DNA of 64,000 nucleotides from a virus. The stretch lies in IMG/VR virus record IMGVR_UViG_3300026132_000002, positions 1 through 64,000 of that record, one strand, 5' to 3'. Position 1 is the first letter of the stretch, and every line of letters starts with the position of its first letter. A program made the translations under genes and the position numbers. The notes beneath the pieces are model-generated. The model was not told the DNA's origin, did not search any database, and worked only from the letters and a program-made list of their open reading frames with translations. Of this stretch, positions 43,605 through 64,000 are shown piece by piece.

Positions 43605-44072
43605 TTAACTCCCGTGTGCCGCCTTGTATACGTCGCTGTCTTTTCCAACATGCACCCCATACTTCTTGGCTGCACGAAGAATGCGCTCTGCCACAACTTT
43701 CTTGGGGTCTCCGAATTTGTGCCCATGACCACCGAAGTAACTCACTGCCGCATGAATATGCTTCTTATCAATGGGGTAGGAGTAAGGAGTGGTCCCACGA
43801 TCAGCGTATTCACTGGCCTTGGTAGGGTAGCCTTTGGTGCCCGGAATCTTTTCGTCTTTCTTTTCCAAAGGAAGGAAAGTAACAGTGATTTCACCCTTCT
43901 CAACTTCTACCGGAAAGCGGGCTACAACCTGCTTATATTCGCTCTTTACAACCACTTCCTCTAAATGAGTGGCCTTATAATTGTCCTTGTACGCAAAGAT
44001 AGCAACGCTATCAAACCCCGGTGCGGGGGAGACCGCGTAATTTCCTTTGCACACAACTGTAGGCTTAGTCAT
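43605..44072 (-). CDS. DUF6582-like protein
   Basis: 155-aa protein whose C-terminal half has SYPIDKKHIHAAVSYFGGHG and ERILRAAKKYGVHV, the pattern of small phage/prophage DUF6582-type domains found with prohead proteases. The N-terminal half is strand-rich. It overlaps the glycosyltransferase stop by eight bases and lies next to the protease, as seen for the family. Function unknown. Confidence 0.55.
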   Translation of the reverse strand: MTKPTVVCKGNYAVSPAPGFDSVAIFAYKDNYKATHLEEVVVKSEYKQVVARFPVEVEKGEITVTFLPLEKKDEKIPGTKGYPTKASEYADRGTTPYSYPIDKKHIHAAVSYFGGHGHKFGDPKKVVAERILRAAKKYGVHVGKDSDVYKAAHGS

Positions 44073-47055
44073 TCTCTATCCCATTGTAGTATTCTGTGGG
44101 TGAGTCATAGGAAACATTGATCTTTTCCGGATCAACAGTTCCCAAATCTTTATTCAAGAGCGAATGAAGCACATCCGCTATTTCATCAGAGTGGTCGCCA
44201 TACATCCACTCAATGGGAAGAAGCGTACCAACTCCACTTGCTTTGATTCTAGCGGCCTGAGTACCAAGGTCAAAACATACAGGCCACAAACCTGCAGCAT
44301 AAGCCTCAGTCAGCGTGTACATATGTGTCTCAGGATAAGTAGACAACAAGAGTGCCAACTTGCAATTGGTCTTGTGGGCACGCTCAATCACTTCATCCAT
44401 ACTCTTGTAAGTGCCTGTGTCCACAAGCTTCCTGCTGCGAGGAACCTCTTCTCCGGCACTGCCAATCAGGATGAAGGTCGTAGAAGTCTTGGGAATTACC
44501 TCCGACAATAGGCGAGACCCCTTATGCGGTCCTATGGAGCCAATCAAGGCAATGTTCTTGCCTGTGGGGGCTTTAGGCTTTTCAATGTGGGTCTTATGTT
44601 GACGCACATAGATCGGCTTATCGAGCTTCAACACATCAGAAATGGGAGTAGCTGCCGCTCCAGAAGGTGCCCACAAAGTCCGTGCCCCTTCCAGCAGCTT
44701 CTTATAAGTGTTGCGATGATTCTCGATATCCACGAATCCGAACGCCGAACCCCGACCAATACATTTGTTGCATTCCTCCGGAGCAGGCAACCCACAATAG
44801 CGCATATCCCGATCCGGATCAGCGTCTCGATGTAAAAGGAATATCTGCGGGCAGATACTAATGTAGTCGTGTAGCATCACATCGTAAGGAATGCCTTCCA
44901 GAGCTTCCATAAGGAAATTCGGGAAGGTATTGTCGTACCCGTATGTGGTGTGGATTTGCACGGATTCCACGCCCAAGATAGCAAGCGTTTCCTTGAACCG
45001 CTGCAAATCAGAGTACAAGGTCAGATCAAAAGGCCGGATATTATCGTATTTGCTATCCCGGGAGCACAGCACCGCTTGTCTCGCTCCTTCGTTCCTGAGA
45101 ATATAAGACTTGTACCCTTCCTTTTCATAGTCCCTAGACACCTCCTTGACGTGGGTTTCCATACCACCCCCAAAGGTATGACTTGTGTAAAGGATCGACT
45201 TCCCCCCTTTCAGAAGTTCCAACTCTACCGCTTCCCGCAACCGGCGCATGGGGTCTTGGGTCAAGATAGAAACTATCATCTGCCGATAACGAGGGTAACG
45301 AAGAGCCATGCGCTGTTCAGCTACTTGCTGAAGTTTCTGGGCTTCTTCCCCAAAGGAAACACTGCCAGCATGATGGACATACACGGAGCTTGTGAGCACG
45401 TGGTGGTAGCCGTGATCCAACGTCCATGAAGCCCAATCGTTTTCTTCCCCGTACCCTCGGTTGTAGCCATGTTCGTCAAAGAGACCACATTTGGCAAGCA
45501 CCGAACGCGACAGGTACATACAGAACCCTACCGGAGTAGGGGTATACATGATTTCGTTCGTCTTGGAAGCGGCTTTGTCAACCTGTTCATGCGTAGCTTG
45601 TGTTGCACTACGGAAGGTACAGATTGAAGCATTGCTTCCAAGCGGGGTCACGGAAGCAATCCGCTTATTAGACTTCGCTACTTTATGCAGCCGGTCAATC
45701 CAATCCCCAAACACCTCCGTGTCACTATTCAGGGTAATCACCGGACCCGGAGTCAACTGAATAGCATTATTCACCGACTTGGTATACCCAAGGTTCTTGT
45801 TATTCTCATGCAGGGAAACCTGCACATACCCTTCATAGGTCGGGCATTCGTTGTCCTTTACGAACTGGCGCAGCATTTCGTGCATAGCCGGTTCAGGAGA
45901 CGCGTCATTGACAATAAGCAATTTAGTTTTTGCGACGTTGTGCGGAAGGGACGCGACCACTGACTCCAGACAACGCTTGGTTGTCTCCACCCCCTTATAG
46001 CAGGGGACAATTACCGTAACGTGGCTTCTTTCCACAGGATCGATACGGTGGGGTTTTGCACCTAATACCTCCATAATCTCATCCAGATGGTCAGAGATTA
46101 TGTAGTGATAACGCACATGCGCCTGAAGCTTCTTGCCTTCATTCTTAGCTTCCTTGCGGTGCACCATATAGTGGCGAATCTGATTCAGGAAATCCTCTTC
46201 ATCCTTGGCCTTGAAGACATGAGGAAAGTCCTTGTAAGGGCCGAAATCCGACGCCAGCACCGGAAACCCACAAGCCCCATATTCCTTGAGTCGAAGATCA
46301 GACTTGCAACGATTGAAGGTAGATGCCTCTAGGGGCGCTACCATCAAATCAACATCCAAGTTTGCCAGATTCTGCCCATACTGGTTGTAAGGAGTGGGCT
46401 TTATAAGCTTGACATTCGCTTCCGAAGGAAACTGGAACCCCGGATTATCGAAGATGAAATGCCACTCAACGGAATCCCCAAGTTCGCGCATGGCCGGGAA
46501 AAGGAGACGCAAGTCTCCCTCATGGGCAATACCCCCTGCAAAGCCAATACGGAACTTGCGATCCTTGGTAGGCTCTCCCCGATTGATTAAGCACCATGAG
46601 TCCGGAAGATAATTGGGGCGCACCTTGATGGGAGTGCCCTTGACATGCGGGCGAAGCTCATCAGCGAGCGCCTGTGTGGAAACCGAGAAGGTGTCCACAG
46701 AAGAAGACAAACGCTTCAAACGCTTCAGGAAATCCTTCGGGGTTACATGGGCATGCGGACTCCACGAAGGAGTCTTGTGGACTGCATCATCCAGATCATA
46801 GACAATATGAGCACCGGCTTTCTTGTACTGCCTCAGCACTTCGATCTGGTGATCGTAATATTGGCGCTGTACTACTACAATCTCGGGGTTGAGACCTTTG
46901 AACCCTTCTTGAGTCAAGAGCTTGTTTGTTACCCGACAATTGGCGTAGCCGTGCTGATGCAAAGCCTGAGCGACGGAGTGGATGCGGTAAATTCCGCATC
47001 CTCCGTTGTCCGCGTTATGAAGAAGAATAAGCGGGGCGTAACTGATCTGTTTCAC
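44065..47055 (-). CDS. Trimodular glycosyltransferase (GT4-GT2-GT4 type)
   Basis: 996-aa protein with three glycosyltransferase modules. Residues 1-300: GT-B type (GCGIYRIHSVAQAL, YDLDD at 86-90, IGFAGGIAHEG near 170, APLEAS then KSDLRLKEYGACG). Residues 345-565: GT-A family 2 (VTVIVPCYKG, IVNDASPEP, LNSDTEV at 442-448, GYGEENDW). Residues 620-996: GT-B family 4 (LYTSHTFGGGMETHVKEV, ALIGSIGPHKGS at 836-847, YPETHMYTLTEA with an E909...E917 EX7E motif). GTG start with GGAGGG six bases upstream. It lies between portal and DUF6582/protease genes and is expressed with structural genes. Substrate unknown: virion protein, DNA or host glycans. Confidence 0.85.
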   Translation of the reverse strand: MKQISYAPLILLHNADNGGCGIYRIHSVAQALHQHGYANCRVTNKLLTQEGFKGLNPEIVVVQRQYYDHQIEVLRQYKKAGAHIVYDLDDAVHKTPSWSPHAHVTPKDFLKRLKRLSSSVDTFSVSTQALADELRPHVKGTPIKVRPNYLPDSWCLINRGEPTKDRKFRIGFAGGIAHEGDLRLLFPAMRELGDSVEWHFIFDNPGFQFPSEANVKLIKPTPYNQYGQNLANLDVDLMVAPLEASTFNRCKSDLRLKEYGACGFPVLASDFGPYKDFPHVFKAKDEEDFLNQIRHYMVHRKEAKNEGKKLQAHVRYHYIISDHLDEIMEVLGAKPHRIDPVERSHVTVIVPCYKGVETTKRCLESVVASLPHNVAKTKLLIVNDASPEPAMHEMLRQFVKDNECPTYEGYVQVSLHENNKNLGYTKSVNNAIQLTPGPVITLNSDTEVFGDWIDRLHKVAKSNKRIASVTPLGSNASICTFRSATQATHEQVDKAASKTNEIMYTPTPVGFCMYLSRSVLAKCGLFDEHGYNRGYGEENDWASWTLDHGYHHVLTSSVYVHHAGSVSFGEEAQKLQQVAEQRMALRYPRYRQMIVSILTQDPMRRLREAVELELLKGGKSILYTSHTFGGGMETHVKEVSRDYEKEGYKSYILRNEGARQAVLCSRDSKYDNIRPFDLTLYSDLQRFKETLAILGVESVQIHTTYGYDNTFPNFLMEALEGIPYDVMLHDYISICPQIFLLHRDADPDRDMRYCGLPAPEECNKCIGRGSAFGFVDIENHRNTYKKLLEGARTLWAPSGAAATPISDVLKLDKPIYVRQHKTHIEKPKAPTGKNIALIGSIGPHKGSRLLSEVIPKTSTTFILIGSAGEEVPRSRKLVDTGTYKSMDEVIERAHKTNCKLALLLSTYPETHMYTLTEAYAAGLWPVCFDLGTQAARIKASGVGTLLPIEWMYGDHSDEIADVLHSLLNKDLGTVDPEKINVSYDSPTEYYNGIEND

Positions 47056-54266: not shown

Positions 54267-54920
54267 CTACTGTGTGGTGTTTAACCGGGCAATCATCCCT
54301 GATCGCACTGAATGAATTATATCATGCGTGTAGGTTTGGTCTTGGGGGACTGCCTCTTTAGCTCCCTCATAACCAAGGTTGTACGCCGTGATCATTTCAC
54401 GCCACGTAAGACCTCGCTTCTGAAGCAAGAGACAGTACCCCAATGCCACACGAATATTGAACTTGGGATTGGTCAAAAGAGAGGTGAGCACAATTTCCCG
54501 CAGGGTGTTCTGGTAGTCAGGGAACATCTTCGGGAAAGCATGAATCACATACATCGCGGTCTTGAGCTTGATCTGCATAATCCCGTAAGTGCGCTGCCCA
54601 AACGGGGCCTGCTGATTGCCAATCGGGCCAAACTTGCCTGCGCGAGTCTCCTTCCACATGATCCCCATGAGCGCCTGAGAGAGGCTGTAAGGCTTTCCAA
54701 TCTTCTTGGCTAGCATGAGGTAGTTATACTGAGAACTCGTCAGATTTAGCTTCTGAGGGCGTGTTAGGGCCTTCGGCACCGTTTGCATGGAAGGCGCCTC
54801 CACGGTTATCACTACCGGGACTGCCTTAACGCTATGAGTAGTGCTGGCATCAGGAATGCTTAACCAAGTCATCGCACAAGCAATGACTATAAACGCCCCC
54901 AAGACAATCCAATGTTTCAT
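54267..54920 (-). CDS. Membrane-anchored lytic transglycosylase (SLT)
   Basis: 217-aa protein with an N-terminal signal/anchor (KHWIVLGAFIVIACAMTWLS) and an SLT-type domain: catalytic Glu91 in GIMWKETRAGKF, then GPIGN, AYNLGYEGA (the AYNAG-type motif). It would be exported and cleave peptidoglycan with 1,6-anhydro products. I use ATG 54920, which follows the preceding gene's stop directly. Having this in addition to the lysozyme at 51464 suggests separate roles in lysis and entry or envelope remodelling. Confidence 0.8.
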   Translation of the reverse strand: MKHWIVLGAFIVIACAMTWLSIPDASTTHSVKAVPVVITVEAPSMQTVPKALTRPQKLNLTSSQYNYLMLAKKIGKPYSLSQALMGIMWKETRAGKFGPIGNQQAPFGQRTYGIMQIKLKTAMYVIHAFPKMFPDYQNTLREIVLTSLLTNPKFNIRVALGYCLLLQKRGLTWREMITAYNLGYEGAKEAVPQDQTYTHDIIHSVRSGMIARLNTTQ

Positions 54921-54922
54921 GA

Positions 54923-55177
54923 TCAACAGGGCTTGCCATAACGGGGCATCGGGAACTCAGCCACCGGGTGCTGCGCATCATACTTGCGAGCCTTCTCCAA
55001 GCACTCTTCGATTTGACTTTTAGCGTTGTAGGCCACTTCCACGAAATCCCACAGACACTCCCTTCCCTTTTCACTCGGTTCAGTAAGCCTCTGCGCTTCG
55101 TCCTTATTTTTTATCTCTTCCAAAGCTTGCCAAGCTTTCAAGAACAATTCTATTTCCGGATACATATGATCTTCCAT
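54923..55177 (-). CDS. Hypothetical protein, first gene of promoter unit
   Basis: Unrecognised 84-aa helical protein (EIELFLKAWQALEEIKNKDEA) ending in a short PMPRYGKPC tail. AGGAGGT lies seven bases before ATG 55177, and an extended -10 element lies at 55202-55210, so it appears to be the first gene of a new transcript. Co-transcribed with the transglycosylase downstream. Confidence 0.55.
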   Translation of the reverse strand: MEDHMYPEIELFLKAWQALEEIKNKDEAQRLTEPSEKGRECLWDFVEVAYNAKSQIEECLEKARKYDAQHPVAEFPMPRYGKPC

Positions 55178-60468: not shown

Positions 60469-60550
60469 CTTCTTCCTTCAGGCCAAGAGGATTGAGAAGG
60501 TGGGACAGCAGGAACAGCACGACACCTCCAAGGATGAGCCATTTCTTCAT
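60458..60550 (-). CDS. Very small membrane protein
   Basis: 30-aa peptide with one hydrophobic helix (WLILGGVVLFLLSHLL) and an acidic tail. ATG 60550 overlaps the stop of the 92-aa gene (ATGA). Could be a small phage membrane peptide. Confidence 0.4.
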   Translation of the reverse strand: MKKWLILGGVVLFLLSHLLNPLGLKEEDEN

Positions 60551-60825
60551 GAGGAATTGCCACCGCACTCGGCGCATTCGCCGGACTCATACACGCTCGG
60601 CCTGCCACACTCGCAGGTCAGGCTGCGCATATCGGCACCGCGCGGGCGTGCCATCAAGGCCCGGGCTGTCTCTCTAGCTGCGGGGAGAGCCGCGCACCAT
60701 GTGCGCCACATCATTCGCAGGGTGGGATCGATATACTCCCCGGCCCATAGCCCGTCTGCATAGCGGGTGAAGTTGCGGTAGCCCTGCTGGTAAGCGTGAG
60801 CTTCAAAACGGTTAACTTCAGTCAT
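60547..60825 (-). CDS. Hypothetical protein with C-terminal zinc ribbon
   Basis: 92-aa protein ending in a ribbon CECGRPSVYESGECAECGG (C..C and C..C pairs), likely zinc-binding. The N-terminal half is helical (YADGLWAGEYIDPTLRMMWR). AGGGGA precedes the ATG, which overlaps the previous stop. May bind nucleic acid or protein. Confidence 0.5.
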   Translation of the reverse strand: MTEVNRFEAHAYQQGYRNFTRYADGLWAGEYIDPTLRMMWRTWCAALPAARETARALMARPRGADMRSLTCECGRPSVYESGECAECGGNSS

Positions 60826-62509: not shown

Positions 62510-62571
62510 AAAAAAATGCGCGTCGGCCCCACCCCCTACCCCCTACGGGATAAAGAATGGAACCGACGCGC
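62510..62571 (-). terminator. Terminator of amidotransferase unit
   Basis: GCGCGTCGG (62518-62526) pairs with CCGACGCGC (62563-62571) over 9 bp with a 36-base loop; on the minus strand a run of seven T follows at 62510-62516. It lies 11 bases past the amidotransferase stop. Confidence 0.85.
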
Positions 62572-62581
62572 TACCGGAGAA

Positions 62582-63391
62582 TTAGTACTTGGCTGGTGCC
62601 TGCTTGGTGCGAGTACGTTTATTCTTCCGCTTGTCCCGCTTGCGACTGGTGCGCGTGGATTGCATGCGTTCGGTTTTCACCTTGGCCGCTTTCGTGCCGC
62701 CCTGTTCCCATCGCACATTGCCGTTTGCATCCTTGCGGAATCCAGAATCGCTAAATGATGTCATGGACCAATCGCCGGACCACACTGCCGCTTCGTGCTC
62801 ATCGACGGTTACAGGGGACGTGTAAAGCGCCTCGGGCATATGCGAATACCAGCATCCGCCATGCCTATATCCGGACTGGTCCGTGTCCACCTTGAAGGAT
62901 CGCTCAGGGTCACGATGAATGAACACCAGCCGCGAGTACCCCACCATGCGACGCAGGGCCATGCGGAATCGCTTATCCGTGAGCGGGTCCGCTAGATCGC
63001 TTTGCTTGTACGCGGCGGACATATACCCGACCCACTCCGCAAACCGCGCGGTATCGGATTTGTCTGTACCCGCTAGTGCCGCGAACGTGCCCATGACGCC
63101 GTTATGCATCACTAGCCAATCCTGATTGATCCGAAATGGATGTACGTTAGCGAGGTCCAGACTGCCATGCGTCGCAATGCGCATATGCAAGTAGCGCGGG
63201 GTATCGGCAGGCAGTGAACAGGCAAAGTCCAGTAGCTTAAATTGCTTCTTGTCACTGAACGCCCGCGCGGTAACCCGCTTTCCTTTGTCCCAATAGACAA
63301 GACCCACTCCGTCGGAATTATAAAACTGCTCTTCGTACACAATGCCCGCGTCAAACTCAACGCCTGTAGGTGCTTCTATGATGATGCACAT
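62582..63391 (-). CDS. Class II glutamine amidotransferase-like protein
   Basis: 269-aa Ntn-hydrolase. The start MCIIIEAPTG leaves Cys2 as the N-terminal nucleophile after Met removal, as in class II amidotransferases; YNSDGVGLVYWD, RIATHGS and MHNGVMG are the matching family motifs (conserved NG and H/R/D positions). The C-terminal tail is Lys/Arg-rich (TSRKRDKRKNKRTRTK). It would release ammonia from glutamine to a partner ligase; the adjacent amidoligase-like gene is the obvious partner. GGAGG eight bases before the ATG. Confidence 0.75.
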   Translation of the reverse strand: MCIIIEAPTGVEFDAGIVYEEQFYNSDGVGLVYWDKGKRVTARAFSDKKQFKLLDFACSLPADTPRYLHMRIATHGSLDLANVHPFRINQDWLVMHNGVMGTFAALAGTDKSDTARFAEWVGYMSAAYKQSDLADPLTDKRFRMALRRMVGYSRLVFIHRDPERSFKVDTDQSGYRHGGCWYSHMPEALYTSPVTVDEHEAAVWSGDWSMTSFSDSGFRKDANGNVRWEQGGTKAAKVKTERMQSTRTSRKRDKRKNKRTRTKQAPAKY

Positions 63392-63406
63392 AATGGAATC
63401 CTCCGA

Positions 63407-64000
63407 TTAGATAAAGAGAGTGCGGGCGGCGGCATCGGAAATAACACCGTACCGTTTTGCGTAACGCTTGCCCGTATCGAATATGTGGAGACCTTCCGCT
63501 ACCTGATCCGCAATAGATTGTGTAGACAGTCGGAAGGTCTTAGCGCGTTCGATCATGCCGAGCACAAACACAAACTGCCGCATGAGCAAAACCGCATTAT
63601 CGAAAGAGCGCGGGAACCTCAATTCGACGGTGCCTTGATGATGCAGTCGGATGGCTGCGTATTTTTCCGTAGGCTGGCATAAAGAACCCTCGGGCTGCCT
63701 TTGGGTTTTCCAGTTAGACCAGTACTTGCCAAAATGCACCGCCGTCTGTGGGTAGCGTATCGCTCCAAATGAACAATACGTGCCGTCATCCTGCCGCATA
63801 ACGCGAGTACGGGTAAAAGCACGCATGGTCCAGCACAAACGTATCAGTCGCGCGAGGTGCAGCGGTGACGTGATCAGGTCGGATATGTGCATATGGAGCC
63901 CGTAATCCTCACCCGGCTCGTCTGCGTAACGCTCAATCCAGTCAAAGAAAGCACCAAACAGCTCGGGGTGGTCATACATTGACAATGGCGACGTGATGAC
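63407..64000 (-). CDS. Amidoligase-like protein, partial at window edge
   Basis: At least 197 residues of a protein whose frame stays open to the window end; the start is outside. The pattern DYGLHMHISDLITSPLHLAR (glycine-His-x-His strand), then TVELRFPRSFDN with LLMRQFVFVL (E-R-F near C-terminal) matches the amidoligase family (COOH-NH2 ligases of the glutamine-synthetase-like fold). It is 15 bases from a class II amidotransferase, a pairing known for this family in phages and bacteria. The product is probably an amide or peptide-like modification; target unknown. Confidence 0.55.
   Translation of the reverse strand, partial: VITSPLSMYDHPELFGAFFDWIERYADEPGEDYGLHMHISDLITSPLHLARLIRLCWTMRAFTRTRVMRQDDGTYCSFGAIRYPQTAVHFGKYWSNWKTQRQPEGSLCQPTEKYAAIRLHHQGTVELRFPRSFDNAVLLMRQFVFVLGMIERAKTFRLSTQSIADQVAEGLHIFDTGKRYAKRYGVISDAAARTLFI

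Follow-up and report, generated by a model that had tools for sequence, protein, structure and literature searches.

A two-gene unit encoding an amidoligase and a class II glutamine amidotransferase (GATase) lies at the right edge of the 64,000-nucleotide stretch of phage DNA analyzed here (the window). This amidoligase–GATase pair is a recurrent phage module, and the pairing of its two genes is near-universal among related loci. On balance, we lean towards the interpretation that the products of the two genes work as a single enzyme that forms amides in a glutamine-dependent manner, which would be a minimal version of the phage amidoligase cassettes, lacking ATP-grasp. The first-pass annotation had placed a class II amidotransferase with an N-terminal Cys and an amidoligase at this edge and considered them a pair of the kind known from comparative genomics. 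Both points were borne out.

The genome and the layout of the pair

The window comprises positions 1–64,000 of a linear, possibly incomplete record of 66,762 bp, and the variant described here is represented by this one genome. The record contains genes for tail sheath, baseplate, portal, terminase, ThyX, RecA/UvsX and deoxynucleotide kinase, a set typical of a contractile-tailed phage. The portal protein is at most about 29% identical to the portals in the phage collection. In two distant phage relatives with a 39% identical portal protein, both of them partial records, neither gene of the pair was matched, and neither protein has a close relative among the phage records or viral contigs searched.

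Three other features of the record were noted. A 996-aa protein with fused GT2 and GT1-type glycosyltransferase domains (window 44065-47055) adjoins the portal gene. A protein with an SLT transglycosylase domain and a hydrophobic N-terminus (window 54267-54926), about 8 kb from the amidoligase–GATase pair, is likely a lysis or entry enzyme. Short imperfect repeats of CCATGACCATCACCATCACCAT (record 65666-65746; 5667-5747 in L007) sit close to the right end of the record, where about 0.8 kb is poor in genes.

Table 1. Features of the amidoligase–GATase unit
Feature	Position	Strand	Length and basis
Amidoligase (GS-fold COOH-NH2 ligase, predicted)	window 63407..64000, complete to record 64252	−	281 aa; family alignment, fold of a relative
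Class II glutamine amidotransferase (GATase; predicted Ntn glutaminase)	window 62582..63391	−	269 aa; Met-Cys start
Intrinsic terminator after GATase	window 62518..62571	−	25-bp hairpin, then T-run

Transcription runs from the amidoligase to the GATase across an intergenic gap of 15 bp (Table 1). The amidoligase had been described earlier as following the GATase and reading off the window. It does cross the edge, but on the minus strand it is the first gene of the two, and what lies outside is its start: the first 252 bp are found at record 64001-64252, and the gene is complete in the record. The Shine-Dalgarno sequence GGAGG precedes its ATG, and the GATase has a GGAGG of its own. The strong terminator that had been proposed to bound the pair is confirmed by RNA folding, which gave a stability of -47.5 kcal/mol (z = -8.5) that was equaled by none of 200 shuffled sequences. 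A second, weaker terminator-like site follows a 139-aa gene of no known family and lies 33 bp upstream of the amidoligase start. As it leaves the pair little space for a separate promoter, this site may only attenuate read-through.

Further members of the unit, such as ATP-grasp, peptidase or acetyltransferase genes, had been expected outside the window. They were not found in the rest of the record (2.76 kb), which contains only small ORFs, none of which could be assigned to a recognized family.

Assignment of the two proteins

Neither protein reaches the Pfam gathering cut-offs. The amidoligase scores 13.4 bits against PF12224 (Amidoligase_2; cut-off 22), and the GATase scores 18.2 and 16.8 against GATase_4 and GATase_6 (cut-offs 23 and 27, respectively). 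Hence, the assignment rests on family alignments, conserved residues and folds, all of which give a clear picture. Six relatives of the amidoligase from the same alignment do pass the Amidoligase_2 cut-off with 25.1-33.2 bits.

In an alignment of 31 amidoligase cores that includes the window protein, the motifs GxExE, DxS, GxE, GxHxHxS, R and TxExR are conserved in all 31, and the window protein keeps 16 of 16 invariant columns. The earlier concern that the edge gene might prove truncated, unrelated or stripped of its His and Glu positions was dispelled: it is complete and retains H120, H122, E28, E30, E84 and E210. Comparison of amidoligase sequence profiles with the PDB gave no credible relative, and only the comparison of folds did. 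It used an AlphaFold2 model of a relative, L010 (pLDDT 89.5), in whose alignment the window fragment was included. The best PDB match of this model was the carboxylate-amine ligase YbdK (1r8g; E 9e-6, probability 1.0), a cellular protein that is the closest solved fold to the family at a sequence identity of about 12%. Gamma-glutamylmethylamide synthetase and Dop/PafA were further matches, with glutamine synthetase lower down. By this model of a relative, the window amidoligase is predicted to be a member of the YbdK/glutamine-synthetase-like fold class. Two core positions of the window protein deviate (A7 numbering). At position 185, the Asn of the other 30 cores is replaced by Arg, and the near-invariant Arg180 is Lys, as it also is in the Acinetobacter phage. 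With these replacements, the substrate may differ or the amidoligase activity may be lower.

The GATase keeps 16 of 16 invariant positions in an alignment of 30 GATases, all of which share the Met-Cys start, Cys2, Arg71, Thr74, Asn97-Gly98 and Asp113. R71, N97-G98 and D113 align with R73, N98-G99 and D123 (GlmS numbering), the glutamine-site Arg, the oxyanion Asn-Gly and the Asp of GlmS. A profile of the GATase family matched the GlmS glutaminase with an E-value of 4e-11, and the structure model of the window GATase matched GlmS (3ooj/1xff) with an E-value of 3e-8. It also matched EgtC (E 4e-5, TM to target 0.48). We are confident in the model-based prediction that the window GATase has an Ntn glutaminase fold of the GlmS-like type.

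Searched singly, the GATase sequence found no matches in IMG/VR. The amidoligase sequence had one match there (L008), which was rejected because the similarity is confined to a fortuitous FFDWIERY segment of a protein that is not related. The initial GATase alignment was too heterogeneous to yield a pattern for scanning.

Pairing across related loci

A scan of IMG/VR with the amidoligase motif alone, in which the GATase was not used, returned 56 viral loci. These relatives were thus chosen by a single motif, and their flanks span up to 6 kb, some being cut by contig ends. In 55 of the 56, the amidoligase gene has a GATase gene within 600 bp on its own strand, and in 52 it is downstream. The sole unpaired locus, L037, is on a contig that ends 132 bp past the amidoligase. 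A scan of bacterial genomes with one degenerate motif gave a single locus, which suggests that the two-gene type is carried by phages.

No third gene is broadly common to the 37 non-redundant loci, which fits a self-sufficient two-subunit enzyme. The largest shared sense-strand family, WhiB-like by eye, occurs in 11 of the 37. These small proteins are encoded shortly downstream of the pair (for example, L010:3685-4080, L013:3727-4065, L016:4687-5094, L024:5031-5396, L035:4111-4449 and L040:8059-8400), which hints at actinobacterial hosts for this group of phages. One locus has a different arrangement, with a single GATase between two amidoligase-like genes (L036:5140-10874).

Proposed function

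Taken together, the conserved pairing, the intact glutaminase site and the glutamine-synthetase-like ligase suggest a glutamine-dependent amide synthetase made of two subunits. In such an enzyme, the GATase subunit would shed its initiator Met, and Cys2 would hydrolyze glutamine. The subunits would presumably be in contact, and the ammonia would be handed to the amidoligase subunit. The latter would act as an ATP-dependent ligase that phosphorylates a carboxylate and then probably converts it to an amide. The target altered during infection would most likely be a host envelope peptide or a host or phage protein. A protein target would be in keeping, too, with the zinc array of the relatives. 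Our literature search found no biochemistry for this type of pair. A functional analogue is the MurT-GatD operon of S. aureus (PMC3267633), in which a ligase and a glutaminase encoded by two genes amidate a carboxylate in peptidoglycan. The two systems are not homologous, as MurT-GatD combines a Mur-ligase fold with a class I GATase of the CobB/CobQ type.

The glutamine-binding residues would bind a gamma-glutamyl compound equally well, and so they do not by themselves prove the use of glutamine. In ergothioneine synthesis, a gamma-glutamyl ligase, EgtA, works with EgtC, a hydrolase that resembles class II GATases and cleaves gamma-glutamyl compounds, and a further enzyme acts between the EgtA and EgtC steps. 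By analogy, the phage ligase could form a gamma-glutamyl amide from which the Ntn enzyme, as a gamma-glutamyl hydrolase, later takes off the glutamyl group, making a protection/deprotection or turnover pair instead of an enzyme that channels ammonia. The match of the GATase model to EgtC given above agrees with this, and so does the nearest fold of the ligase, since YbdK is a relative of gamma-glutamyl ligases. We nevertheless consider this reading unlikely: GlmS surpasses EgtC in both the sequence and the fold E-value, and a ligase and a hydrolase working on the same bond would be futile without an enzyme in between, yet no third gene is conserved.

Comparison with known phage systems

Phage amidoligase-GATase pairs have been published already (PMC10580990, with reference to Iyer et al. 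2009 and to the paper on Marvin). An amidoligase and a class II GATase are also part of the peptidoglycan-modification cassette of phiEco32, LUZ24 and RIO-1 (Iyer et al. 2009, as cited in PMC10580990; PMC5498523). That cassette includes, in addition, an ATP-grasp protein and a gamma-glutamylcyclotransferase (GGCT), and some phages also have another COOH-NH2 ligase in it. Modification of peptidoglycan against superinfection has been proposed for it, and the accessible parts of PMC5498523, PMC11945000 and PMC10580990 report no direct tests. Genes for an ATP-grasp (or D-Ala-D-Ala-ligase-like) protein and a GGCT are present in the same region in phiEco32, LUZ24, ctwe8250 and Stenotrophomonas phage StenR_269.

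The record of the window phage lacks these additional components. Searches of its 66.8 kb, possibly incomplete, gave no RimK-family match, no match to a phage ATP-grasp profile, no PF06094 match or significant profile match for a GGCT (AIG2-like) protein, and no second copy of the window amidoligase family. ATP-grasp and GGCT genes were found near the pair in only one of the 56 related loci (L058). The proposal in the first-pass annotation that the other members of the unit lie outside the window is supported neither by this record nor by the 55 loci without ATP-grasp.

The pair could still belong to a cassette of the phiEco32/LUZ24 type if the ATP-grasp and cyclotransferase genes were missing only because the linear record is incomplete, and the same two enzyme classes do occur beside ATP-grasp and GGCT genes in the phages described in PMC5498523 and PMC3890496. 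This is distinctly improbable, as neither gene is present in 66.8 kb and ATP-grasp is absent, within the sequenced flanks, from 55 of the 56 related pairs. In addition, the GATase tree sets LUZ24, phiEco32 and the Rhizobium phage apart, on long branches and with modest support. Hence, the window pair is most likely the minimal two-gene form and not the peptidoglycan cassette.

Two-gene pairs are likewise found in mycobacteriophage Marvin (gp105-106), OM43 phages MEP401/402, Caudoviricetes ctgrD200 and Acinetobacter phage vB_AciJM_313. These share with the window pair the enzymes, their placement on one strand, their order and the invariant residues, have no ATP-grasp gene annotated adjacent, and are about 19-25% identical to it. 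Their amidoligases are 453-676 aa long with CxxC motifs before the core, whereas the window protein has 281 aa and no such motif, and their GATases lack the basic tail of the window GATase. The window pair is thus a divergent, zinc-less two-gene variant of the known phage amidoligase-GATase pairs. That the proteins are degenerate or unrelated and resemble these families by chance, as the sub-threshold Pfam scores and the lack of close relatives in phage records and viral contigs might suggest, is scarcely credible and runs counter to what residues and folds already show, given that all catalytic positions are kept, both frames are intact, the GlmS-like fold is confidently predicted and the gene order is conserved.

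A basic GATase tail and the absence of a probable zinc region

The window amidoligase starts only 25 residues ahead of its core and contains no CxxC motif. The other 60 amidoligases examined are all longer (L014 is cut by a contig end), and each contains CxxC motifs, for the most part within an extension at the N-terminus. The model of the Cys-rich extension of L010 (L010:1052-1480) resembles tandem LIM domains (LMO2, PINCH and CRP1). A strict LIM-like spacing pattern was present in 10 of the 31 relatives scanned, so that the term LIM-like fits part of the family, the rest having a Cys-rich, probably zinc-binding region. This N-terminal region is usual in the relatives rather than a proven defining feature of the two-gene module. 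LIM domains are known mainly from eukaryotic adaptor proteins, and the equivalents of the L010 extension in other phage amidoligases may fold similarly. A literature search for LIM domains in combination with amidoligases found no paper.

A misplaced start or an in-frame lost N-terminus of the window amidoligase was rejected, as the reading frame opens merely 6 codons before the ATG. The upstream 139-aa gene, which has no relative among phages or viral contigs, was rejected as a detached zinc domain because it has no CxxC. Also of note is a small ORF (window 60547-60825) with no Pfam family and with two Cys-pair motifs at its C-terminal end. It is possibly a zinc ribbon and conceivably a detached zinc domain.

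The C-terminal ~40 residues of the window GATase are predicted to be disordered and are strongly basic (net +14). The tails of the other GATases examined are neutral or acidic, with the exception of the Rhizobium phage (+6). These features can be combined into a rather doubtful reading, in which the pairs form a phage-specific, zinc-finger-guided protein-amidating family. The Cys-rich zinc array of most relatives (LIM-like where modeled) would guide the glutamine-synthetase-like ligase to a carboxylate of a host protein, which would then be amidated in a glutamine-dependent way, and the window phage would have swapped this array for the basic GATase tail.

Implications

Phage amidoligase and GATase genes have been listed for more than 10 years as putative cell-wall modifiers, and our literature search found no tested substrate. 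The common minimal two-gene form without ATP-grasp is now set apart from the larger cassette, and the pair offers a small self-contained unit for testing glutamine-dependent chemistry. Furthermore, as one phage manages without the zinc domain, the role of this domain, in targeting or in catalysis, can be tested by comparison.
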